Both the position numbers and the translations under genes were made by a program. From NCBI GenBank assembly GCA_017475005.1, contig JAFVGI010000008.1, positions 1 to 62,222 of the forward strand: a DNA stretch of 62,222 bases, in the 5' to 3' direction. The notes under the pieces are model-generated. The model was given only the letters and a program-made list of their open reading frames with translations. It had not been told where the DNA came from and made no database searches. Below, piece by piece: positions 49,741-62,222 of the stretch. The DNA comes from Prevotella sp. (GTDB lineage Bacteria > Bacteroidota > Bacteroidia > Bacteroidales > Bacteroidaceae). How positions within the stretch are numbered: position 1 is the first letter of the stretch; each line of letters opens with the position of its first letter.

Positions 49741-51366
49741 ATGAGAATTAAATTTATTTGCCTTGCATGGTGTCTGGTAATGACACTTGCATCAAAGGCA
49801 CAAACAGAACGTCAGATTTCAGTAACTGAGAACATCGCATACAGAACCGATGTAGGATCAAGTACTGTACTCGACCTTGCACAGCCACAATTCGGGCCAC
49901 AGCAGAATCGTCCAGCCATTCTCATCATCCATGGTGGAGGATGGAGCGCAGGTTCGAAGAACGACGCAGTATATCGTGCACTGATGGTGGACTATGCCAT
50001 GAAGGGTTATGTAGTTTGCAACATGAACTATCGCCTAGTTCAGGAGGCTGAGCCACCTGCTTGCATTGAGGATGTTCGCTGTGCCATCAGATGGATGAAG
50101 GCAAATGCACAAAAACTTGGCATCGACCCAAACCGCATTGGCACGTTTGGTCACTCAGCAGGAGGCCATCTGTCGCTGATGGCTGGTGTGGCAACTGATA
50201 GCAAGATTTTCAACGATGATGCCGACCCTTGGAAGCAATATGACTGCTCTGTTGCATGTACTGTAGGCGGTGCTGCAGTTACAGAACTTGGAAGGCCAGG
50301 AATTCCTTGGGGTGACAAAAAAGAATATTGGCCTATCGGATATATTGGCAAAAGCAAGACTCCTTTTCTCGTATTGCAAGGTGGGGAAGATCCTGTGGTA
50401 AAACCAAATCTGACAGAGGATTGGGTGAAGCAGATGCAACAAGCTGGCGCATCAGTAGATTATGTAAAGGTGCATGGACAGCATGGAGTGGCCTATGACC
50501 AGCAGTTGGAATTCACCCGTCCTGCAATGGATGCCTTCTTTGCCCGCTATCTAAAGCATGAAGACCCTTCTGTCAGCTTTGAGCAGATGAAGGTTGTGGA
50601 ATATGGTGGAACCGGTCGCCACAAAGCTATTGCAGTACGAGAAAAATCCCTCCCTGATTTTGTAGTATATCGCCCCCTAAGAATGAGAGGCAAAATGCCT
50701 GTACTGGTATTCTGCAACGGAGGCTGCATGGATACCAGCATTGGCTACGAGAATATGCTCAGCGACATCGCTTCATACGGCTACGTAGTGGTTGCAGTAG
50801 GAGAAATGCAGATGTTTGCTCAGCATGATAAAGACCAGCATACCCCTTCTTCTATTGTAAAGAAAGCCCTCGACTGGATTAGCCAGCAAGCTGCTGACCC
50901 TGCTGCTCCTTATTATAATAAGGTAGATGCTGACAAAATTGCTGCAGCAGGACACTCTTGCGGAGGAGCACAGGTATTGGCTAATGCTGCCGATACCCGC
51001 CTGAAGACATATATCATTCTGAATGCAGGAATGGGTAAGATGACGATGGCGGATGCCAGTGCAAAGTCTTTGAAGAATCTCCATGCTCCTATCCTCTATC
51101 TTGTTGGCGGAACATCGGATGTAGCATGGAAGAATGCCCAAATGGATTATGATGCAATCAAGAAAAATCCAGTAGTATTGGCAGACAACACACAAAGTGG
51201 TCATGGAGGCACTTATGAACAGCCAAATGGCGGAGCAAACTCTCGCATGGTTCGCGCTTGGCTCGACTGGCAACTGAAGGACATGCAGGAAAACAAAAGT
51301 CTATTCATTAATGGCGACCTCACTGGCTACGATAACTTTACTATTAAACATAAGAACATCAAATAA
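49741..51366 (+). CDS. Double alpha/beta-hydrolase esterase
   Basis: 541 aa exported protein (signal peptide ends ASKAQ) with two complete alpha/beta-hydrolase domains. Domain 1 (about 25-275) has an 'IHGGGW' oxyanion motif and the nucleophile 'GHSAGG', as in BD-FAE-type carbohydrate esterases. Domain 2 (about 285-530) has the nucleophile 'GHSCGG' and a dienelactone hydrolase/PET-hydrolase-like layout. Beside pectate lyase and GH43, it probably removes acetyl or feruloyl groups from pectin or arabinan. Each domain could act on a different ester. It lies 11 bases before the GH43 gene. Confidence 0.78.
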   Translation: MRIKFICLAWCLVMTLASKAQTERQISVTENIAYRTDVGSSTVLDLAQPQFGPQQNRPAILIIHGGGWSAGSKNDAVYRALMVDYAMKGYVVCNMNYRLVQEAEPPACIEDVRCAIRWMKANAQKLGIDPNRIGTFGHSAGGHLSLMAGVATDSKIFNDDADPWKQYDCSVACTVGGAAVTELGRPGIPWGDKKEYWPIGYIGKSKTPFLVLQGGEDPVVKPNLTEDWVKQMQQAGASVDYVKVHGQHGVAYDQQLEFTRPAMDAFFARYLKHEDPSVSFEQMKVVEYGGTGRHKAIAVREKSLPDFVVYRPLRMRGKMPVLVFCNGGCMDTSIGYENMLSDIASYGYVVVAVGEMQMFAQHDKDQHTPSSIVKKALDWISQQAADPAAPYYNKVDADKIAAAGHSCGGAQVLANAADTRLKTYIILNAGMGKMTMADASAKSLKNLHAPILYLVGGTSDVAWKNAQMDYDAIKKNPVVLADNTQSGHGGTYEQPNGGANSRMVRAWLDWQLKDMQENKSLFINGDLTGYDNFTIKHKNIK

Positions 51367-51377
51367 ACGACACAAAC

Positions 51378-52427
51378 ATGAAAGCATTACTTGCCTCAGC
51401 ACTTCTGCTGGTTAGTGCCCTCACAGTAACGGGACAGGGACAACGTCGCGGATTTCCAAGAGAAGCGTTTACTACAGATACTCCAATGGTTCACGACCCT
51501 GTGATGGCCAAGGACGGTGACACCTATTACATCTTCTCCACAGGCAGAGGCATCCAGCAGATGACATCCAAGGACCGCAAAACGTGGACGGTGCTTCCAC
51601 AGCCTGTTATGACTGTTATCCCTGGTTGGACGACCGACTCTGTACCTGGTTTTGAGAGCCATGTTTGGGCACCCGATGTCATCAAGTGGCACGGACGCTG
51701 GTGGATGGCCTACAGTTGCTCCACCTTCGGTAAGAACGGCTCTGCCATCGGTCTGCTCAGCAGTCGCTCGCTGCGCTCTAATATATGGAAAGACGAAGGC
51801 TGCATCGTGACCTCCCACGACTGGAAGAAGAATGCTGATGGCTCTACATCCGGCGACAACTGGAATGCCATAGATCCCAATTTTGTAATCGACGACAATG
51901 ATACCCCTTGGCTCGTATGGGGATCGTTCTGGGACGGCATACAACTGGCACGTCTCGACACTACCATGCATCTGGCTTCCAAGCCAGTTACCATTGCCCG
52001 TCGCCATCGTCCGGGAGACCCTAATGCTGCAGAGAATCCCACCTCACGCTTCGCAGGACGCAATGCCATCGAGGCACCATTTATCTTCAAGCACAACGGT
52101 TGGTACTATCTCTTCGTATCGTGGGATTACTGCTGCCGTGGAGCCAAGAGCAACTATCGCGTTGCCATAGGTCGCAGCAAGAGCGTTGAAGGCCCTTATC
52201 TAGACCGCGAAGGCAAGGATATGCTGAACGGTGGGGGCACCATATTCATTGAGGGTGACAAGAAGGAATGGGAAGCCGCAGGCCACTGCGCTGCCTATAC
52301 TTTCGACGGAGAAGATATCTTCATCTGTCACGGCTATAGCGCCACCCGCAACGGCGTCGCATTGCTTATCCAACGTCCCATCACATGGACTACCGAAGGA
52401 TGGCCGGAGGTAAAAAGTGAAAAGTGA
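51378..52427 (+). CDS. GH43-type glycosidase (arabinanase-like)
   Basis: 349 aa, signal peptide (ending TVTGQ), five-bladed propeller family. The three acidic catalytic positions are visible in 'VHDPVMAKDG', 'NAIDPNFVID' and 'NAIEAPFIFKHN'. The pattern is closest to endo-arabinanase/arabinosidase members. The last codons (VKSEK) and the stop come from a heptamer array (52413-52440), so the native C-terminus may have been altered. Operon partner of the double esterase. Confidence 0.85.
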   Translation: MKALLASALLLVSALTVTGQGQRRGFPREAFTTDTPMVHDPVMAKDGDTYYIFSTGRGIQQMTSKDRKTWTVLPQPVMTVIPGWTTDSVPGFESHVWAPDVIKWHGRWWMAYSCSTFGKNGSAIGLLSSRSLRSNIWKDEGCIVTSHDWKKNADGSTSGDNWNAIDPNFVIDDNDTPWLVWGSFWDGIQLARLDTTMHLASKPVTIARRHRPGDPNAAENPTSRFAGRNAIEAPFIFKHNGWYYLFVSWDYCCRGAKSNYRVAIGRSKSVEGPYLDREGKDMLNGGGTIFIEGDKKEWEAAGHCAAYTFDGEDIFICHGYSATRNGVALLIQRPITWTTEGWPEVKSEK

Positions 52428-52440
52428 AGAGTGAAGAATT
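52413..52440 (+). repeat. Heptamer array at the GH43/phosphatase junction
   Basis: AAAAGTG, AAAAGTG, AAGAGTG, AAGAATT. It provides the GH43 stop codon at 52425-52427 and the bases up to the next start. Confidence 0.85.
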
Positions 52441-52444
52441 AAAT

Positions 52445-53251
52445 ATGAGCACCACATTACAAGACATAAAAGAGGCTGCCGTCAGGATGGCACTTCATTG
52501 CGGTAAGATACAACTGGAGTCTTTCCGCACAAGCAATATAGGCATAGATACCAAGAGTAATATCTATGACGTAGTAACAAAGGTTGACAAGGCTTGTGAA
52601 GATTATCTCCTCACAGAGATTTCACGCCTCTACCCTACCCACTCAGTAATAGGAGAAGAGACAGGACAACACTTGCATGCCGACAGCGAATGGGCTTGGG
52701 TGGTTGATCCTCTTGATGGTACAAACAGCTACTCACAGGGACTGCCGGTTTTCTGCGTTAGCATCGGCATCACATATAAGGGAGAATGTGTTGTTGGAGT
52801 TGTCTATGCCCCTTACCTCAACGAACTCTTTACCGCTGTTAAGGGCGAAGGAGCATGGTATGGGAAAGCAGGAAATATGGATACCACCAAGTTACATGTT
52901 TCTTCCAAAGATTCTTTGAAAGAATGTGTTGTAGCATCTGGTTTCCCTTATGACAAGGCTACCCACCCCATAAATAATATACGAGAGGTAAGCATTGTCA
53001 TACCACAGGTGCGTGGTTTCCGAAGAATGGGGAGTGCAGCATACGACCTATGCTGTACTGCCATGGGAACCATTGATGCTTACTGGGAGTATAACCTCAA
53101 TCTGTGGGACGTATGCGCCGGTCAGCTTATTGTACAGGAGGCCGGTGGCATCATCATTCCGCTATGCGACGACCGCAAGATAAGCATCATCGCAGGACCA
53201 AAAAATTTGGTCAAGGAACTGCAAGGAGTCCTTGACCAAATCAGCAAATAA
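52445..53251 (+). CDS. Inositol-monophosphatase-family phosphatase
   Basis: 268 aa from the ATG at 52445 (MSTTLQDI); an in-frame ATG at 52424 lies in the repeat array and is less likely. Metal-site motifs: 'GEETG', 'WVVDPLDGTNSYSQG' and 'LWDVCAGQLIVQEAGG'. Acts on inositol phosphates or 3'-phosphoadenosine-type substrates; SuhB- or CysQ-like function cannot be separated here. The end of the coding region doubles as the transcription terminator of the convergent NRPS gene. Confidence 0.88.
   Translation: MSTTLQDIKEAAVRMALHCGKIQLESFRTSNIGIDTKSNIYDVVTKVDKACEDYLLTEISRLYPTHSVIGEETGQHLHADSEWAWVVDPLDGTNSYSQGLPVFCVSIGITYKGECVVGVVYAPYLNELFTAVKGEGAWYGKAGNMDTTKLHVSSKDSLKECVVASGFPYDKATHPINNIREVSIVIPQVRGFRRMGSAAYDLCCTAMGTIDAYWEYNLNLWDVCAGQLIVQEAGGIIIPLCDDRKISIIAGPKNLVKELQGVLDQISK
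53200..53241 (-). terminator. NRPS terminator embedded in a convergent coding sequence
   Basis: On the minus strand ATTTGGTCAAGGA and TCCTTGACCAAAT form a perfect 13-bp stem followed by TTTTT. The hairpin lies within the last 17 codons of the phosphatase gene. On the plus strand there is no T-run, so it is directional. Confidence 0.75.
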
Positions 53252-53255
53252 CTAA

Positions 53256-56200
53256 TTATTCGAAGAATCCGAAGGCGGCTATCTGGCGGAGCATCTGGAT
53301 GATGTATTCGCTAGATGTGTCGCTCCAGTGGAATCCCAGACGGTGCAGCACGCTACAAGTGTAATGGTTATCGCGTTCGATAATCGAAGTCTTCTGTCCG
53401 TGAGCCACATCCTGATAAGCCACAAGGGCAGCAAGAAGTTTGGCCTTCTCCGGATCTTGTCCGGCAACAGCAATGGTCTGCTCGAATTCGTCAGCCTCAA
53501 CGAAACGCATATCCTTACCCACTTTCTCCATGAGCCGCAGCACATCACCCAGCAACTCAGTGTGGTTGTTGAAGGGCTGGAATACAGTACATTCCTTCGG
53601 CGTTGAAGCGAGGAGCACCACAGCCTTGGCTGTCTCATCGATAGGCGACATCTCTGTGTATTCGTCATAACCGTCGTAAGGACAGCAACCCAGCGTATAG
53701 AACACTTTAAGGCGTCCCATGTAGCTGTTGCTGTTGAAGTTAGCCTGGAACTCACCGTCGGCACTGCGCGGTGCCAAATTACCCACACGCATTACCTTGG
53801 CACTCAGACCATGATGAACTACTGCATCCAATATCAGACGCTCAGCGAGGAACTTGGAGTGGATATAACGATTGTCCAGGAACTGACCGAACCATAGTTT
53901 GCGCTCATCAAGCATAGGCACCTGACCGCCGTCACCGCGATCTATCCATATCTCAGCCACCGATGTCGTGGAGATGTGCACTAGGCGAGCACCATTCTTC
54001 AGACAGAACTCCACACAACGCTGTGCACCACCGATATTAACGTCTTCTATGTCCGTTCCCTTGGAGAAATGCTTCACGTTGGCGGCACAGTTAAAGACGG
54101 TGTCAATAGAGAAGTGAGAGGTCTGAGTTGAGAGGTCTGAGAGGTTTGAGAAATCCTGAGTTACATCACCGTTGACTACGAAGAGTCTGCTGCCAAAGAG
54201 GTTTGCGTATGACTTCTCGTAATAATAGAAGAGCAGATTCTTGAGACGGTGCTCAGCTGAAGCCTGATCTTTACCACGAACAAGGCACGTAATAGTCTGA
54301 GCATCAGATTCAATGAGCTCACGCAGCACATGGATGCCCAGATAGCCGGTAGCACCAGTCAGGAGAACATTACCCAACTGCTGTCTCTCGCCCTTCAGGA
54401 ACATATCAATATTATTGTGCTGCAAGATGGCATCAATTCCCGAATAGTCGAAGTCCTCAATCTCGGTATCGGTCATATCTACCGGTGCTGCGCCTCCTAC
54501 GAACTGCGCCAACAGACGCGGTGTAGGATGGTCGAAGACATCGCCATAAGCTACATGATGCCCAGCCTTATCGGCCTCGATGACAACTTTGGTAACCATC
54601 AACGACGTACCGCCCATCTCGAAGAAATTATCGGTAGCACCTACCTTTTCCAAAGACAGGATGTCAGCAAAGATGTCGCAGAACAGTGTCTCCACATCTC
54701 CTACCGGAGCCACGAACTCGCGTTCCTCTACTTGTATCTGCGGTGCGGGCAGAGCGCGGCGGTTCACCTTCTGGTTCTGGTTAAGCGGAATATTATCTAT
54801 CTGCATCGTTGCTGCAGGCACCATGTAAGGCGGCTTGCGGTCACGTATGAAGGCATTCAGCGTCTGGATGTCGATTTGTTGGTCACTCACCACGTAAGCA
54901 GCAATATATTTACCACCATTGGGGTAGTCGAAAGGCTGCACAGTAGCATCCTTGATGCCAGGGAACTCACGAATCACCGATTCCACCTCTTTCAGTTCTA
55001 TGCGGAAGCCACGAATCTTTACCTGACCGTCACTGCGTCCCACAAACTGTATATTGCCGTCAGCCAGATAACGCACCACGTCACCTGTGCGGTAGCAACG
55101 CTTGCCGTTCCATTGTATATATGTTTCGGCAGTCTTCTCAGGAAGATTAAGGTATCCTCGGCTCACCTGCGGACCAGTTACCAACATCTCACCGGCAGCC
55201 CCCAATGGAAGACGATTCATATCCTTATCTACAATGTATAGCTGCAGATTGTCAAGCGGTTTGCCGATAGGAGCATTCTGCTCGTACTCCGTCTGCACAT
55301 AAGTGGTCGTGAAGATGGTACACTCCGTAGGTCCGTAGGCATTATGGAGTTTATAACCCTTAGGTGGAGTAAGCGGCAGAATCTTTTCGCCTCCGACAGA
55401 AAGGTGATGCAGTGAGTGGTTTTCACAGTTCATCGCAAACTGACATCCCACCTGTGTTGTCATGAACGAATGGGTCACACCTTCCTTGTCAAAATATGCA
55501 TTCAAATCCGGAAGGTTCAAACGAATATCGTCGCCCACAATCACTACGGCAGCGCCAGTAGTCAAAGCCGGATACATATCCATCATGCAAGCATCAAAGC
55601 CATAGCTGGCGTAGGCAGCCACCTTGTCGCCAGGTTTGAGGTCGTAATAGCGCTGATACCAATGACAGAAGCATACAAGGTTTCCGTGCTCCAACTGACA
55701 ACCTTTTGGCTTTCCCGTAGAACCGGAGGTGTAAAGCAGTATGAAGAGACTTGAGGGGGAAATCTGAGCATTCAGAGTAATCGGAGTATTCGGAGCAACT
55801 GGAAGAGCCGCAAGATCTTTTGTCAACAGCACAGGACCTTGATATTCACCCACCTTCTCTAAAAGCGCTTCTTCAGCAATCAGCAACTTAGCATCAGCAT
55901 CCTGCATCATGAAGTTCAGGCGCTCGGATGGGTAACTTGGATCAAGCGGTTGGTATGCACATCCAGCTTTCAGCACTCCTAACGATGCCAGCACCATCCA
56001 CTCGCTACGGCCAATGAGAATGGAAACAACATTCTCCTTGCCACCCTCAACCTTCGAGTTGACAAGTGCTGCGATGGCATCAGTCTTTTCATCCACCTCT
56101 TTGTATGTGAGGCGCACGTCGTGATAGATAACAGCCAGATTATCCGGTGTCTCTTTTACCTGACGGCGGAACAACGACAATATAGTTTGAGTATCATCAT

Positions 56201-59200
56201 ACTCCACCGCTGTCTGGTTAAAGGAATCCAGAAGGGTTACGCCAGCGGTATCCATGAGTGAGATGCTACGCAGCGGCTTATCGGCAGCGGCAGCAAAGGC
56301 ACTCACGGCATTGCTCACACTCTGTGCAAGACTCTGCATCATAGCCTCACTGTACTGTCCGTTGTCGTATTCAATGGCAACACCAGGTTCCCCGGGCTCA
56401 TCCGTAATATAAAAGGCAATTTTGAACTTAGGCACATTCAACTCCATCGTCTCGTCAGCCAGTACCTTCTTTCCGTCTATGCGGTAATCGCTCAGCACAC
56501 CCATCTGATAGGCAAACATAATGTCAGCCTTGAGACCGTAGTCGGCAGCGACACGTGCGAACGGATAGTTCTCGTGAGCAAGGGTTTGCTCAAATGTTTC
56601 CTCACTCTCATGAAGGAAATCCTTCACACTCTGCGAACCTATCTTAGAGGAAAGCGCAAGGGTGTTCACGAACATACCCATCGTATTTGCCACTTTCAAG
56701 TTATTGCGACCGTTGGAAATGGTGGTGATGCAGATATGGTCGTTTCCGGAGAAACGTGAGAGGCAGTAGAATACGGCACTCAGCAGTACAGCTGATGGCT
56801 TCACGCCCTGTTGCTTTGCAAGCTGTTCGGCATCATTCCATACAATTGGAGCCCATACGCGACCGTTCTCACCTTGCGGACGAGGATTGGTAAGGTCGGG
56901 AGCTAGCTCCGTCACTTCCTCCACATCACCAAGACGCTGTTTGAAGAACTCGGCAGCTTCGGCAAAGGCCGCATCTTTCTCTGCTGCCTTCTGATCCACG
57001 ACAAACTGCATGTAGCTGCACATCTCAGGCTCTATCTCCTCACCATTCATAAGACTGCATATCTCATGAATGAACAGGTCATAGGAATATCCGTCGCACA
57101 CGAGATGATGAATGTCGCAGTACAGATATAGCGCCTTATCAGTATGGATGGTGGCTAAGCGGAACAGTCTGTCTTTGCCCAGGTTGAACGGACGCACGAA
57201 TCCGTGACGGAAAGCAAGCGCCTCCTCTTCGCTCATGGTATAGTCTTCAATATCCACTGGTGTCTCTCGGTCGCCCATCACCTGCACTACCCCACTCTCA
57301 TCAGTCGTAAACTGCACGAAGAGAGCCGGATGGTTCTCCACAGCCTGAAGCGTAGCCTTCTTCAGTGCTTCGACATCAGTTTCTACTGGGAAGGTTAAGC
57401 ATACCGGGGTGTTATACAACGTTGAGGTAGGATTCTTCATGCAGTCGAAATAGACACCCGTCTGAGCATAACTCAGCGGAGCAGAAGTCAACGGGTCTGT
57501 CGTACTATCCGTATTAGCAGTACCCGTAGCACCTCCAGAGAGGAAGGCATCCAGGATAGCATTTTCTACCGTCTGGATATTAGCACCCTTAGTGAGAAGC
57601 TGGGCATCCAACTGTACACCGAAACGCTTGTATATCTGCGTAGCAACCTTTATTGCCAAAATGGAGGTAAGACCAACGTAGCGGAGGTCTGTGGTGATTC
57701 CGAAGGCATCGGTATTCAATACTTCTGCCACTATTTCCTTCAGCTTCTGCTCAAGGATATTAAGTGGTGCAGCAGATTCTTCCTCTGTTTCAGCGGCTGC
57801 ACCGAAGACAGGCTCAGGCAGAGCGCGGCGGTTCACCTTCTGATTCTGGTTAAGCGGAATGGAATCTATCTGCATCGTTGCAGCAGGAACCATATAAGGC
57901 GGTTTCTGGTCCATTATGAAGCTGTTCAATGCCTTGACGTCAATCTGCTCATCGGCAACGATATATGCAGCAATGTATTTTCCGCCAGTAGGATAGTCAA
58001 AGGCCTGAACGGTAGCATCCTTGATGCCAGGGAACTGTCGGATAACAGCCTCCACCTCCTTGAGTTCGATGCGGAAACCGCGAATCTTTACCTGACCATC
58101 CTTTCGGCCTACGAATTCGATATCTCCATTGTCACGATAACGCACGATATCACCGGTGCGATAGATACGTTTTCCACCCCACTCTACGAAGGCTGCTGCT
58201 GTCTTCTCGGGCTGATTCAGATAACCGATACCCACCTGTGGACCAGCAATAATCAGTTCGCCGCAGCATCCCCAAGGCACCTGTTTCCCAAAACGGTTCA
58301 CAATATACATTTCCACAGTATCGTTCGGTTTGCCGATAGGGATATTAGGCTCATTCTTATCCACATAATGGCTGCATACATAGCAGGTAGTCTCCGTAGG
58401 TCCATAGGCATTGAGCAGATGGTAGGAAGGCGGATCAAGACTCATTAGCTTCTCGCCGCCCGTTCCCAGATACTGGAGTTGAGCTATTTCGGGATATGAA
58501 AGAGCCATCTGCGTGGCCATCTGCGTGGTCATGAAACAGTGGGTCATACTCTCCTTGGTCAGGTATTCGTATAAAGCCTCTAAATTGAACCGTATGTCAT
58601 CTTGTATGATATACATGGTAGCACCAGCCCACACGCAGGCCCACAGGTCGTGCTGGTAAGCATCGAAGCCGTAACCGGCGTAAGTGGCATAGCGCGAGCC
58701 AGCTTTCAAACCTATATGCTTAACATGGAAATTTGTGAAGACGCGGAAATTCTCTTCGCTCAGCATTACACCCTTCGGCGTGCCTGTAGTACCGCTGGTG
58801 TAAAGCAACACCAAAGCATCGGTGCCATCGTAGGCCGCTGCATCCTTCTTCATAAATTCTAATCGCTCCTCGGGATAGCTGCTGTCAAGCGGCAGTTGTG
58901 TGAGACCCGCCTTTGCAATAGCCAGAGGAGCCAGCACCATCTTTTCGTCACGGGGGACAGAGAAGCCTACTACACGTTCTCCACAGCGAACCGTATATGA
59001 AGGGTCTATGGTATCAGTGAGCTTATCTACCTCAGCAAAGGTGAGCCGTTTGTCACCTGCCACGCAGAAGATATCATTAGGCCGTTCTGCCACATGTTGT
59101 TTGAAGCGCTCCACCAACGTCGGGAGGCCGGCAGATGATTTGATGTCAGGATTGAGACTATTCAACCATTTAACCTGTTCCGATGTAGCATATTCCAGTT

Positions 59201-60443
59201 CCTTCACTTTATTGGCTGTAACCATCGAGCGAAGGATTGCGCTGTAGCAGGCCGCCAGTTCTGTCATGAATGCATCAGAAAAGTCGGTACTGCTATAACC
59301 CAGTTTCAAGGAATAAGAACCTTCTTTCTCAAATAGCTCAGCCACCAACTTCCATCCAGGTATCTGTTTCCTCAGATCGTGGTAGGCTACCTTACTGTTT
59401 CCGAAATGTAACTCTTCATTGGTGTTGAGCACTGAGCCATGATATACAAACATTACCTGATTACTCAACCCCATATCTTTCACGGCATCCTGATATGCAT
59501 AGTATTGCAGACGCTCCGTAGTAGCCTTTTGCTCAGCCAGGGAAGCAAACATTTCCTCCATTGATTCTTCACTTTGGAACTGGACAAACACAGGCAATGT
59601 ATGCACCATCATCGTCACAGTAGAACGTGTACGACGGTCTCCCCGACCAAAATACAGGGTACAATACGATGCCTTGTCTTCAGCTCCATATGCAGCCAAC
59701 AGTAATGCCCATGCAGCATTCATCAAGGTTCCCTCCTTAACGCCGAAACGTTTCATGACGGCCTGTACATCATCTTTTGTAATGCTCAGCGGATAATGCT
59801 TAAGACACATCTCAGCAGGGGCATCACCAAGCGTATTTTCCGGTATCGGCAGGGAATCGGTTTCTGCAGCATCGCAGAAGGTCTTGCCATACCACTCACG
59901 CGCCTCGGTCATCTTGGTCTCATCAGCACGGAGAGTCTCTTCTTCCTGAGCGATAATGCTGCCGTCTATTTCTTCTCCGACAGGCTCTTTGCCATTGAAA
60001 CAGCGCTCAATATCCCGCAGTATCAATACTACAGAGAATCCATCAGCAATGACATGGTGGAAGTCAAGATACAGCCACGCCTTCCCTTCTGTCGTCTGAT
60101 AGAGTTCGCAGCGGTATAACTTGTCTCCATAGATATCCATTGTTCTGGCAAAGCTGGATTTCGCTTCCTCTATTGAACCTACCGACATTAGCGGCACTGC
60201 TTTCTCTATTTCAGGGAATTCACCACTTTCCACCTTTGGCACACCATCTTCACCAAGTACGATACGTGAAGCAATATATGGATGGGCACAGAGAGCCTCA
60301 TAAACTGCTTTGCGCACCTGTTCCACATTAGCATCCTTCGGAATATCCAACAATACTGGATTCTGATAATTAGTAAGCTCGTCATTGTTCGTGACGCATG
60401 CATAATAGACGCCTAACTGGCTTTGACTTAATGATGACCTCAT
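53256..60443 (-). CDS. Dimodular non-ribosomal peptide synthetase, C-A-T-C-A-T-R
   Basis: 2395 aa from the ATG at 60443; a TTG frame extends to 60467. Domains: condensation 1 (about 1-420, HHVIADG near 128), adenylation 1 (about 440-880, LLYTSGTTGTPKG near 551), carrier 1 (Ser in GLTS near 925), condensation 2 (about 990-1400, HHLVCDG near 1111), adenylation 2 (about 1420-1895, LLYTSGSTGKPKG near 1573), carrier 2 (GGTSL near 1944) and a thioester reductase (about 2025-2395, LLTGATGYLG). Predicted to release a dipeptide aldehyde, possibly N-acylated because a condensation domain comes first. Adenylation 1 is shortened. My reading of the specificity positions (DAHFGGACYK and DAMFSGAIFK) hints at hydrophobic substrates but is weak. 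It lies 1 base after the symporter stop. Confidence 0.9.
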   Translation of the reverse strand: MRSSLSQSQLGVYYACVTNNDELTNYQNPVLLDIPKDANVEQVRKAVYEALCAHPYIASRIVLGEDGVPKVESGEFPEIEKAVPLMSVGSIEEAKSSFARTMDIYGDKLYRCELYQTTEGKAWLYLDFHHVIADGFSVVLILRDIERCFNGKEPVGEEIDGSIIAQEEETLRADETKMTEAREWYGKTFCDAAETDSLPIPENTLGDAPAEMCLKHYPLSITKDDVQAVMKRFGVKEGTLMNAAWALLLAAYGAEDKASYCTLYFGRGDRRTRSTVTMMVHTLPVFVQFQSEESMEEMFASLAEQKATTERLQYYAYQDAVKDMGLSNQVMFVYHGSVLNTNEELHFGNSKVAYHDLRKQIPGWKLVAELFEKEGSYSLKLGYSSTDFSDAFMTELAACYSAILRSMVTANKVKELEYATSEQVKWLNSLNPDIKSSAGLPTLVERFKQHVAERPNDIFCVAGDKRLTFAEVDKLTDTIDPSYTVRCGERVVGFSVPRDEKMVLAPLAIAKAGLTQLPLDSSYPEERLEFMKKDAAAYDGTDALVLLYTSGTTGTPKGVMLSEENFRVFTNFHVKHIGLKAGSRYATYAGYGFDAYQHDLWACVWAGATMYIIQDDIRFNLEALYEYLTKESMTHCFMTTQMATQMALSYPEIAQLQYLGTGGEKLMSLDPPSYHLLNAYGPTETTCYVCSHYVDKNEPNIPIGKPNDTVEMYIVNRFGKQVPWGCCGELIIAGPQVGIGYLNQPEKTAAAFVEWGGKRIYRTGDIVRYRDNGDIEFVGRKDGQVKIRGFRIELKEVEAVIRQFPGIKDATVQAFDYPTGGKYIAAYIVADEQIDVKALNSFIMDQKPPYMVPAATMQIDSIPLNQNQKVNRRALPEPVFGAAAETEEESAAPLNILEQKLKEIVAEVLNTDAFGITTDLRYVGLTSILAIKVATQIYKRFGVQLDAQLLTKGANIQTVENAILDAFLSGGATGTANTDSTTDPLTSAPLSYAQTGVYFDCMKNPTSTLYNTPVCLTFPVETDVEALKKATLQAVENHPALFVQFTTDESGVVQVMGDRETPVDIEDYTMSEEEALAFRHGFVRPFNLGKDRLFRLATIHTDKALYLYCDIHHLVCDGYSYDLFIHEICSLMNGEEIEPEMCSYMQFVVDQKAAEKDAAFAEAAEFFKQRLGDVEEVTELAPDLTNPRPQGENGRVWAPIVWNDAEQLAKQQGVKPSAVLLSAVFYCLSRFSGNDHICITTISNGRNNLKVANTMGMFVNTLALSSKIGSQSVKDFLHESEETFEQTLAHENYPFARVAADYGLKADIMFAYQMGVLSDYRIDGKKVLADETMELNVPKFKIAFYITDEPGEPGVAIEYDNGQYSEAMMQSLAQSVSNAVSAFAAAADKPLRSISLMDTAGVTLLDSFNQTAVEYDDTQTILSLFRRQVKETPDNLAVIYHDVRLTYKEVDEKTDAIAALVNSKVEGGKENVVSILIGRSEWMVLASLGVLKAGCAYQPLDPSYPSERLNFMMQDADAKLLIAEEALLEKVGEYQGPVLLTKDLAALPVAPNTPITLNAQISPSSLFILLYTSGSTGKPKGCQLEHGNLVCFCHWYQRYYDLKPGDKVAAYASYGFDACMMDMYPALTTGAAVVIVGDDIRLNLPDLNAYFDKEGVTHSFMTTQVGCQFAMNCENHSLHHLSVGGEKILPLTPPKGYKLHNAYGPTECTIFTTTYVQTEYEQNAPIGKPLDNLQLYIVDKDMNRLPLGAAGEMLVTGPQVSRGYLNLPEKTAETYIQWNGKRCYRTGDVVRYLADGNIQFVGRSDGQVKIRGFRIELKEVESVIREFPGIKDATVQPFDYPNGGKYIAAYVVSDQQIDIQTLNAFIRDRKPPYMVPAATMQIDNIPLNQNQKVNRRALPAPQIQVEEREFVAPVGDVETLFCDIFADILSLEKVGATDNFFEMGGTSLMVTKVVIEADKAGHHVAYGDVFDHPTPRLLAQFVGGAAPVDMTDTEIEDFDYSGIDAILQHNNIDMFLKGERQQLGNVLLTGATGYLGIHVLRELIESDAQTITCLVRGKDQASAEHRLKNLLFYYYEKSYANLFGSRLFVVNGDVTQDFSNLSDLSTQTSHFSIDTVFNCAANVKHFSKGTDIEDVNIGGAQRCVEFCLKNGARLVHISTTSVAEIWIDRGDGGQVPMLDERKLWFGQFLDNRYIHSKFLAERLILDAVVHHGLSAKVMRVGNLAPRSADGEFQANFNSNSYMGRLKVFYTLGCCPYDGYDEYTEMSPIDETAKAVVLLASTPKECTVFQPFNNHTELLGDVLRLMEKVGKDMRFVEADEFEQTIAVAGQDPEKAKLLAALVAYQDVAHGQKTSIIERDNHYTCSVLHRLGFHWSDTSSEYIIQMLRQIAAFGFFE
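54111..54152 (-). repeat. In-frame 9-base repeat array in the NRPS reductase domain
   Basis: Plus-strand units AGGTCTGAG (54119), AGGTCTGAG (54133) and AGGTTTGAG (54142) with a 5-base interruption. They code for the NLSDLSTQTS stretch of the reductase, just before 'IDTVFNCAANVKHFS'. Confidence 0.75.
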
Positions 60444-60444
60444 A

Positions 60445-61776
60445 TTATATGATATTAAGTGATTCAAGGAAAATAATGACGATGGCTAGGGGAACTATCC
60501 AGCGCAGAATCACCAGATAGACGAGAGAAGCTACTCTCGAACCCTGATATCTAGCCTTCGGTACGAACCATCCTGTGAACAATGCCGCTCCCAATGCTCC
60601 GACAGGTATCAGGATATTGTTGGCAAAATTGTTAGCGGAATCGAACATGTTCTGTCCCATCACCGTGAGCCATTCTGCATGACCTGTCATTGACAAGATG
60701 CACAACGTATTTGTGATAACCTGTATCACGGCGACGAGTATGACGCTCTGATGTCTGTTGAGCGGCCATCTGGTATCTGCCGTTGCCTCACAGAAGAAAG
60801 CTACCATTACCTCCATCAGAGAGATGGTAGAAGTGAGGGCTGCGACACACATCAAAGCAAAGAAAGCCACGCTGGTCACCGTCGGACTGAACATGTGCTG
60901 GAACACAGCCGGCAGTGTGACAAAGGTCAGTTGCGGTCCCTCAGACGGACTGAATCCGTAAGCGAACACAGCAGGAAATATTATCATACCCGCCAGCAAC
61001 GATACTATCAAGACCAGAATAATCATTTGTGCCGACGTTGATGTGACATTCTGCTCCTTAGGCATATAGCCACCATACGTGATTAGAGCGCCAACACCTA
61101 CGGATAAGGTGAAAAAGCTGAGTCCCATCGCCTGCAACACCGCATTAGAATCTATTTTCGAGAAGTCAGGCTTGAACAGATAATGTAATCCGGTGCTGCC
61201 GCCATCGAGGAAGACCATGTGGACAGCCATAATAATCAGCATCAGGAACAATAGTGGCATAAGAATTTTGCTCAAGCGCTCGATGCCCTTGTTGACGTCG
61301 AACCACAATACCGATGCAGTCATGATAATGGCAATGATGGCATAGATTATCATCACGGGAGCATGCCCTTCGAAAGTCCTGAAGTGCTCAGTCAGCGCCT
61401 CCGCATCCATTCCTGCGAACGTGTTCGACGCAGCTTCTACCATGTAGTAGATGCACCATCCTGTAACCACAAAATAGAAGCTCATGATGGCCATCACGCA
61501 CAGCAGGTTTGTCCATGCGAGCCACTGCCACCGGTTTGTACCGCATATCTCGCGGTAAGCACCATAAGTACTCTTGCCCGACAGTTTGCCTATCATGAAT
61601 TCGTTCATCACCAAGGGGAGTCCGAAGAGTAGCGAACACAAAACATACAATATGATGAACGCGCCACCGCCGTTCTCACCCACGACATAAGGGAACTTCC
61701 ATATACTCCCCAATCCTACGGCGCTGCCTGCAGCAGCCAACAGCACACCTATTTTAGATGAAAAAGACTTCTCCAT
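60445..61776 (-). CDS. Sodium:neurotransmitter symporter (NSS)-family transporter
   Basis: 443 aa, 11-12 TM segments of the LeuT fold. TM1 carries the sodium-site motif 'AAAGSAVGLGSIWKFPYVVG' and TM6 'LSFFTLSVGVGALITYGGY'. Prokaryotic members import amino acids (tryptophan, leucine, tyrosine). The stop codon is 1 base from the NRPS start and 42 bases separate it from the STAS gene, so it belongs to the NRPS unit. It could supply an amino acid substrate to the NRPS or take up its product; that link is inference. Confidence 0.88.
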   Translation of the reverse strand: MEKSFSSKIGVLLAAAGSAVGLGSIWKFPYVVGENGGGAFIILYVLCSLLFGLPLVMNEFMIGKLSGKSTYGAYREICGTNRWQWLAWTNLLCVMAIMSFYFVVTGWCIYYMVEAASNTFAGMDAEALTEHFRTFEGHAPVMIIYAIIAIIMTASVLWFDVNKGIERLSKILMPLLFLMLIIMAVHMVFLDGGSTGLHYLFKPDFSKIDSNAVLQAMGLSFFTLSVGVGALITYGGYMPKEQNVTSTSAQMIILVLIVSLLAGMIIFPAVFAYGFSPSEGPQLTFVTLPAVFQHMFSPTVTSVAFFALMCVAALTSTISLMEVMVAFFCEATADTRWPLNRHQSVILVAVIQVITNTLCILSMTGHAEWLTVMGQNMFDSANNFANNILIPVGALGAALFTGWFVPKARYQGSRVASLVYLVILRWIVPLAIVIIFLESLNII

Positions 61777-61818
61777 AGTTATCTGTCCAAGATTATTTTG
61801 TCACGACAGACCTAATCT

Positions 61819-62124
61819 TTAATCTTCAAACTCAAAGATACTGATGAATCCTGTCAGTTGGAACACGCTCTTGATGTCGTCGTTCATTCCCTTCATCACG
61901 ACACGGCTGCCACTGGCTTTAGCACCCTTCAGTATTCCCAACAGGATACGCAGACCGCTGGAAGCAATATACTCCAGATTAGTGCAGTCGATAATTACAT
62001 CTTTGCCATTACTTTGATAGAGTGGCTTCAACACTTCCTCTGCCTCCACTGCTGCTGCTGTATCCATTTCTCCTTCTAATGTGGCAACAAACTTGCCTTC
62101 GATTTCTTCAATTTTTGCTTTCAT
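61819..62124 (-). CDS. STAS-domain anti-anti-sigma-factor-like protein
   Basis: 101 aa, a single STAS domain of the SpoIIAA/RsbV type. The conserved phosphorylation region reads 'DCTNLEYIASSGLRILLGIL', with the Ser-Ser-Gly as in RsbV/SpoIIAA. The upstream partial gene looks like its kinase. Position ahead of symporter and NRPS suggests that a partner-switching module is co-transcribed with them. Confidence 0.88.
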   Translation of the reverse strand: MKAKIEEIEGKFVATLEGEMDTAAAVEAEEVLKPLYQSNGKDVIIDCTNLEYIASSGLRILLGILKGAKASGSRVVMKGMNDDIKSVFQLTGFISIFEFED

Positions 62125-62138
62125 GATTTTTTGCGTTA

Positions 62139-62222
62139 TTATGTCTTTTCAATATTCTTCACCAGCGACAGTACATTCTTTCCATCCATGCGTTCGTAGT
62201 TTATGCTGTCCATCAGCTCGCG
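62139..62222 (-). CDS. C-terminal end of a probable RsbW-like ATPase/kinase (cut by the window edge)
   Basis: Only the last 27 residues are in the window (ending YERMDGKNVLSLVKNIEKT). 'LMDSINYERMDGKNVLSL' resembles the final strand and helix of RsbW/SpoIIAB-type histidine-kinase-fold ATPases, and the next gene is a STAS protein. The gap to that gene is 14 bases. Confidence in the family is moderate because so little is visible. Confidence 0.5.
   Translation of the reverse strand, partial: RELMDSINYERMDGKNVLSLVKNIEKT

Follow-up and report, generated by a model that had tools for sequence, protein, structure and literature searches.

The right end of contig JAFVGI010000008.1 of a Prevotella sp. 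carries four genes that probably represent a sensor-controlled secondary-metabolite operon of rumen Bacteroidales, a reading that we hold as a whole with moderate confidence. The contig (C68) was analyzed in its entire length of 62,222 nucleotides, called the window below, and belongs to a 2.36-Mb draft genome that is 81% complete; this completeness applies to all searches of this genome reported here. All four genes lie on the minus strand and, in the order of transcription, encode a fused sensor, PP2C phosphatase and RsbW-type kinase (here named SWITCH), a STAS-only protein, an NSS sodium symporter, and a nonribosomal peptide synthetase (NRPS). They are closely packed, with 14 bp between SWITCH and STAS, 42 bp between STAS and NSS, and a single base between the end of NSS (60445) and the NRPS ATG (60443); the open frame of the NRPS itself starts upstream at a TTG (60467). 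An earlier note on this DNA had described both the series of four minus-strand genes and the one-base distance between symporter stop and NRPS ATG. Both were confirmed, and the recurrence of the series in many other genomes makes it more than a product of chance. The existence of the gene set and its recurrence are established; the function given for it here is a prediction from sequence. No publication on the set SWITCH-STAS-NSS-NRPS was found in the open-access literature searched, a coverage outside of which most subscription journals lie. The kinds of parts are already known; new are their combination and the exporters with a fused RsbW-type domain that are described below.

The window contains only the last 27 codons and the stop of SWITCH (62139..62222, minus strand). 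The window and contig C10 share 141 identical bases, at the end of the former and the start of the latter, an exact overlap of the sort that a k=141 assembly graph would leave, and joining both contigs therefore completed the cut gene to one of 734 amino acids (L061:58-2262 on contig C10, minus strand). In the full protein the Pfam domains MCP-like_PDC_1, SpoIIE and HATPase_c_2 exceed their cut-offs, and dCache_1 falls short of its own. Judged by these domains, SWITCH is a PDC-type sensor, a SpoIIE-type PP2C phosphatase and an RsbW-type kinase in a single chain. The earlier note had taken the cut gene for one of RsbW type; the overlap with C10 and the Pfam domains of the full protein rule out a free RsbW. 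The residues D392, D409, D527 and D579/D580 are invariant across 17 SWITCH proteins, and E639/E640/N644 occur in at least 90% of them, and thus residues that look catalytic appear to be kept. A SWITCH profile matched Rv1364c (best), RsbW and PctA structures in the PDB. The STAS-only protein (61819..62124, minus strand, 101 amino acids) matches PF01740/PF13466, scores over the cut-off of TIGR00377, is of the anti-sigma-antagonist type and has an SSG serine motif (S55, S56); S55, S56 and G57 are invariant in 15 of 15 aligned sequences. All parts of a partner switch are thus present, a PP2C phosphatase, an RsbW-type kinase and a STAS protein with a conserved serine. Besides the STAS protein of the window, no other STAS-only protein was found in this genome; a second STAS match sits in a frame of 586 amino acids, which probably encodes a SulP transporter.

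Matches to the NRPS at E 1e-30 were found in 63 of 150 genomes of a genus sample, the own genome among them. A set of 32 regions chosen by large NRPS genes or parts thereof (L018-L049, of which L021 duplicates a portion of L020, and L048 and L049 come from a single genome as separate contigs) was compared with eight control loci that encode one-module synthetases of the order C-A-T-R. A SWITCH gene is present on the same strand at most 6 kb upstream in 19 of the 32 regions, versus none of the eight controls; less than 1.6 kb of upstream sequence is available in four of the 13 regions without a SWITCH match and in one control. As the 32 regions had been picked by their NRPS, named genomes were scanned independently by SWITCH alignment alone. 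This yielded at least 591 relatives, of which the best 80 were kept; by title all of these are from Bacteroidota, many from ruminant stomachs, and 68 have at least 3 kb of downstream sequence. Within 5 kb downstream, these 68 loci of the best 80 encode STAS in 56 cases, a same-strand NRPS in 34, an outer-membrane-like protein in 31, NSS in four and MATE in three. A link between NRPS and partner switch, as had been proposed in the earlier note, is thereby borne out: half of the loci have the synthetase, all 34 of these also have STAS, and an NRPS on the opposite strand was found within 5 kb downstream in none of the 68. The rate expected by chance is about 0.2%, a rough estimate of ours that assumes one such NRPS per 3-Mb genome. 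One additional NRPS lies upstream of SWITCH in divergent orientation (L140). Gaps of at most 50 bp separate SWITCH and STAS in 70 of 78 pairs, the outer-membrane-like protein and the NRPS in 23 of 29, and the NRPS and MATE in 21 of 26.

Several results weigh against a close functional bond between switch and synthetase. The other 34 of the 68 seeded loci have no downstream NRPS, and 22 of these have STAS and eight the outer-membrane-like protein. Distances were correlated for 33 dereplicated loci with 2000 permutations. SWITCH and STAS distances correlate with a rho of 0.57 (no permutation as high), versus weak values of 0.28 for SWITCH and the full NRPS (0/2000) and 0.23 for SWITCH and the R domain (3/2000); the value for SWITCH and A1 is 0.10 (183/2000), and STAS and R do not correlate at all (rho about 0; 1014/2000). 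A tight co-evolution of NRPS and switch was therefore rejected; SWITCH and STAS remain paired while the NRPS genes that follow them are exchanged. A tree of 97 SWITCH genes, NRPS-chosen ones included, contains one clade of 19 rows without NRPS (16 without, three cut), and among the other 78 rows 51 have an NRPS, 18 have none, and nine are cut. At least 18 changes of the NRPS label fall on starred branches, and its gain or loss is therefore frequent. L034 and L122, whose SWITCH proteins are identical, represent one locus in two collections. It could be argued that the genes are neighbors by convenience, i.e., that SWITCH-STAS, often accompanied by the gene for the outer-membrane-like protein, serves as a sensing cassette of general use beside varied cargo including NRPS genes, with no action on the NRPS product. 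The 34 NRPS-less loci and the much closer co-variation of SWITCH with STAS than with the NRPS would fit, as would the alternative neighbors of SWITCH genes without NRPS, a Na/H exchanger (L094) and CitMHS transporters (L101, L133), all with TrkA_C. However, order, strand and short gaps are constant with the NRPS over genera and families that are distinct by title, and 51 of the 78 SWITCH genes outside of the 19-row clade have an NRPS (NRPS-chosen loci included), and we consider mere convenience to be unlikely.

The gene between STAS and NRPS is a variable part of the operon. In the window it is the NSS symporter of 443 amino acids (60445..61776, minus strand), which scores 160.6 bits with PF00209 and 113.5 bits with NF037979, both over cut-off. 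Within the 34 named runs from STAS to NRPS the slot is filled by the outer-membrane-like protein (22), NSS (3), MATE (2), or the outer-membrane-like protein plus an NSS remnant (1), and it is empty in six; the exact order of the window recurs in three named loci (L066, L071, L079). Elsewhere the slot contains SDH_alpha (L022) or MFS (L042), and MATE often follows the NRPS (26 pairs). NSS copies near related NRPS genes are 73-86% identical to that of the window. The earlier note had coupled the symporter to the NRPS. That the gene is present and belongs to the family was upheld, but the coupling is variable, with NSS in only four of the 68 seeded loci, one of them a remnant of 98 amino acids. 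NSS is thus a genuine but replaceable part of the operon. Pieces of NSS are also found just ahead of the NRPS in L018, L023 and L069 (52-63 amino acids aligned, 71-94% identical), as if the symporter were being lost or the assembly were broken there. The outer-membrane-like protein owes its label to six inspected sequences, all of which begin with a signal-like stretch and end in W or F, and to matches to Alginate_exp, at the cut-off in L138 (25.2 bits) and below it in others; a comparison with the PDB found no relative.

The synthetase of the window (53256..60443, minus strand, 2395 amino acids from the ATG) has the Pfam domains Condensation, AMP-binding, PP-binding and NAD_binding_4, and a thioesterase is not among its Pfam matches. 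Together with the domain limits this verifies the order C-A-T-C-A-T-R that the earlier note had proposed, two modules ending in a reductase instead of a thioesterase. All on the minus strand, the domains are a leading C with the motif HHVIADG (59151..60443), A1 with the code DAHFGGACYK (57774..59123), T1 (57528..57785), an internal C with the motif HHLVCDG (56214..57503), A2 with the code DAMFSGAIFK (54735..56198), T2 (54504..54728) and the terminal reductase R (53259..54458; NAD_binding_4, 120.6 bits). The A codes, read by the position numbering of GrsA, led to no substrate assignment. Among dimodular relatives the commonest codes are DAMFSGVIFK for A1 (13 of 59) and DAQSRGCVAK for A2 (21 of 60), and the A2 codes split into several unlike classes. 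As A2 would set the residue beside the aldehyde, this diversity would fit inhibitors of different proteases. The A1 domain of the window is of a compact form, which spans 444-450 amino acids versus 483-502 for other A domains compared and lacks about 40 residues ahead of the core ATP-binding motif. This form is common to five loci (the window, L066, L018, L077, L019), four of which share a long-branched clade of leading C domains.

All 71 internal C domains and 60 of the 66 leading ones keep the HHxxxDG motif. Because of this motif in the leading C, and because leading C domains group separately from most internal ones, an N-acyl dipeptide aldehyde would be favored over a pyrazinone as the product. 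It weighs against this that the closest relative, L018, carries HHIIADA in its leading C. The group of leading C domains, with a local support of 99%, also includes two internal and two C-A-T-R rows in a tree without reference starter domains. Alternatively, the NRPS could release a free dipeptide aldehyde, which would then cyclise to a pyrazinone in the manner of AusA (NF047350). AusA resembles the synthetase of the window in its two modules and terminal reductase and is its best NCBIfam match. The R domain as such fits the pyrazinone, the relatives L039 and L042 are A-T-C-A-T-R enzymes without a leading C, and dipeptide aldehydes from the gut were obtained as pyrazinones upon isolation (PMC12327764). 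However, the window NRPS scores 1026.5 bits versus the AusA cut-off of 2500, and the order of AusA is A1-T1-C-A2-T2-R (PMC12153313) and lacks the leading C with HHxxxDG. Score and domain order rule out membership of the AusA family. A capped amine would be unable to cyclise that way, and ruminopeptin is described as an N-acylated Leu-Glu aldehyde (PMC8518294), and a pyrazinone is thus rather improbable. Of the proposal in the earlier note, the dimodular NRPS with a terminal reductase stands and N-capping is favored by the leading C; the pyrazinone has become the less likely form. The note had also suggested a search for a phosphopantetheinyl transferase (PPTase), and a PPTase-superfamily gene of 196 amino acids was indeed found elsewhere in the genome, on contig C34. 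Another PPTase-superfamily gene (L114:13960-14517) lies 53 bp after a SWITCH-STAS-outer-membrane-like run without NRPS.

Taken together, a putative mechanism can be outlined. The SWITCH sensor would read a periplasmic ligand, and this would set the balance of STAS phosphorylation versus dephosphorylation. The NRPS, primed by the PPTase encoded elsewhere, would build an N-acylated dipeptide, which the R domain would release as an aldehyde, likely a protease inhibitor, and the transporters would move substrate or product. RsbW-type kinase, PP2C phosphatase and STAS are the parts of SigB/SigF switches, and in a conventional partner switch the kinase domain would be an anti-sigma factor, and a sigma factor encoded elsewhere would change the transcription of the operon and of other genes. 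The genome does contain two matches to sigma-70 region 3, and eight region-2 matches in all, and therefore ECF-like factors exist. However, both region-3 factors are RpoD-like (L146:1285-1962 and L147:1243-2115; 89% identical over 225 amino acids, the second short at its N-terminus). No SigB/SigF-type factor was found in this genome, with TIGR02980 scores of 111 and 90 bits versus a cut-off of 234 and all SigB/SigF/SigG scores far below cut-off; a further search for annotated sigma genes in the operons was not made. The control of production by growth or stress through a SigB-type factor, as envisaged in the earlier note, is thus not supported. Kinase domains on MATE exporters, which have no obvious sigma role, also argue against the conventional scheme, which we regard as possible, though not probable.

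In four proteins, L035, L070, L084 and L065 of the own genome, MatE and a C-terminal HATPase_c_2 both score over cut-off in one chain, HATPase_c_2 with 43-49 bits versus a cut-off of 27.4. To the extent that it was accessible, the open-access literature searched yielded no earlier description of a MATE protein with a fused RsbW-type kinase. The operon of L084 has the order SWITCH-STAS-MATE-NRPS; here the kinase domain is missing at E 0.1 from SWITCH, which stops after SpoIIE, and is present on the MATE. The fusion in this operon is 76% identical to one on contig C9 of the own genome. In the genus sample, matches to MATE-kinase proteins occur in 18 of 150 genomes, and 21 of the 23 matches are long frames. 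All 21 were inspected; the 20 besides L035 are all MATE plus kinase, and six of the 21 lie beside an NRPS (L162, L163, L164, L165, L176, and L035, there one gene away). These fusions suggest partner switching without a sigma factor, in which STAS, its phosphorylation set by the periplasmic sensor, would dock on kinase domains of RsbW type, including several that are part of MATE pumps, and thereby gate a peptide exporter and perhaps synthesis. The switch would then act on the export of a secondary metabolite instead of on transcription. We put this forward only tentatively and with considerable doubt. Its most speculative step, which we likewise think rather doubtful, is that the STAS output would be these kinase domains, the MATE-fused ones included, and not a sigma factor, such that production or export would be switched after translation. 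On the basis of these gene arrangements, direct control of export by the switch is plausible but unproven.

Several observations stand against it. The kinase domain is present on both SWITCH and MATE in L035 and L070, and in three further NRPS regions with a shortened SWITCH gene (L020, L030, L044) no exporter carries a kinase. Both MATE-kinase fusions of the own genome, on contigs C9 and C26, lie away from the operon. No NRPS is nearby for 15 of the 21 fusions, and a comparison of the MATE kinase tails with the PDB gave nothing at E 0.01, solved RsbW structures included. A STAS-only homologue is present in all 18 MATE-kinase genomes versus 72 of 132 others, but also in all eight C-A-T-R control genomes, and therefore the genome-level co-occurrences of STAS with NRPS and with MATE-kinase were set aside as confounded; shared ancestry may explain that of MATE-kinase and STAS. 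In this table G066, which has NRPS fragments only, is placed outside the dimodular group, and G101 is counted as MATE-kinase on a short frame. As a side observation, the three SWITCH-STAS operons with a kinase-bearing MATE (L035, L070, L084) all have a three-module NRPS of the order A-T-C-A-T-C-A-T-R, and two further three-module loci (L043, L141) are without such a fusion.

The operon is flanked by polysaccharide genes on both sides (49741-53251 and L061:2483-11088). One flank contains a BD-FAE-type esterase and GH43, the other a rhamnogalacturonan lyase and a GH2 enzyme, and a gene for an ArsP-type permease faces SWITCH. The genome has a second NRPS of 1843 amino acids in region L005 (contig C55, 1281-13742), with a sensor with Y_Y_Y/HATPase_c domain, a WD40-like protein and a TonB-type receptor as neighbors; a similar set precedes a reductase-terminated NRPS in L041.

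The operon combines traits of several known systems. The part of the AusA description available to us mentions no partner switch. The predicted product, an N-acylated dipeptide aldehyde, is that of ruminopeptin (rup) of Ruminococcus bromii and of the gut dipeptide-aldehyde NRPS family (PMC8518294, PMC12327764). That organism belongs to another phylum, and the likeness is one of product description. A leading C domain is presumably present in the rup synthetase as well. The RsbU-RsbW-RsbV and SpoIIE-SpoIIAB-SpoIIAA switches and Rv1364c share the PP2C phosphatase, the RsbW-type kinase and STAS with the operon. However, phosphatase and kinase are here united in one membrane sensor, and no SigB/SigF-type target was found in the 81%-complete genome. 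SypE of Vibrio fischeri is one protein that acts as kinase and phosphatase for the STAS-only protein SypA, which has an unknown target (PMC8256260); SypE controls biofilm, whereas the present case is one of a PDC sensor with an operon for an NRPS. The transport part of the MATE fusions is an ordinary MatE (PF01554) by Pfam, and it is the C-terminal HATPase_c_2 that sets them apart from other MATE exporters.

NRPS clusters are common in rumen genomes, with 5,346 clusters in 8,160 genomes according to one survey (PMC8241843), and their triggers are mostly unknown. The operon links synthetases of one family, which are predicted to make peptide aldehydes, to a definite kind of sensor and switch, and therefore the trigger can be sought. 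Should the STAS/kinase module indeed target MATE exporters, membrane proteins would become direct targets of partner switching, and the targets of STAS-only systems could be tested. Protease inhibitors of rumen origin could, in addition, bear on the breakdown of feed protein.

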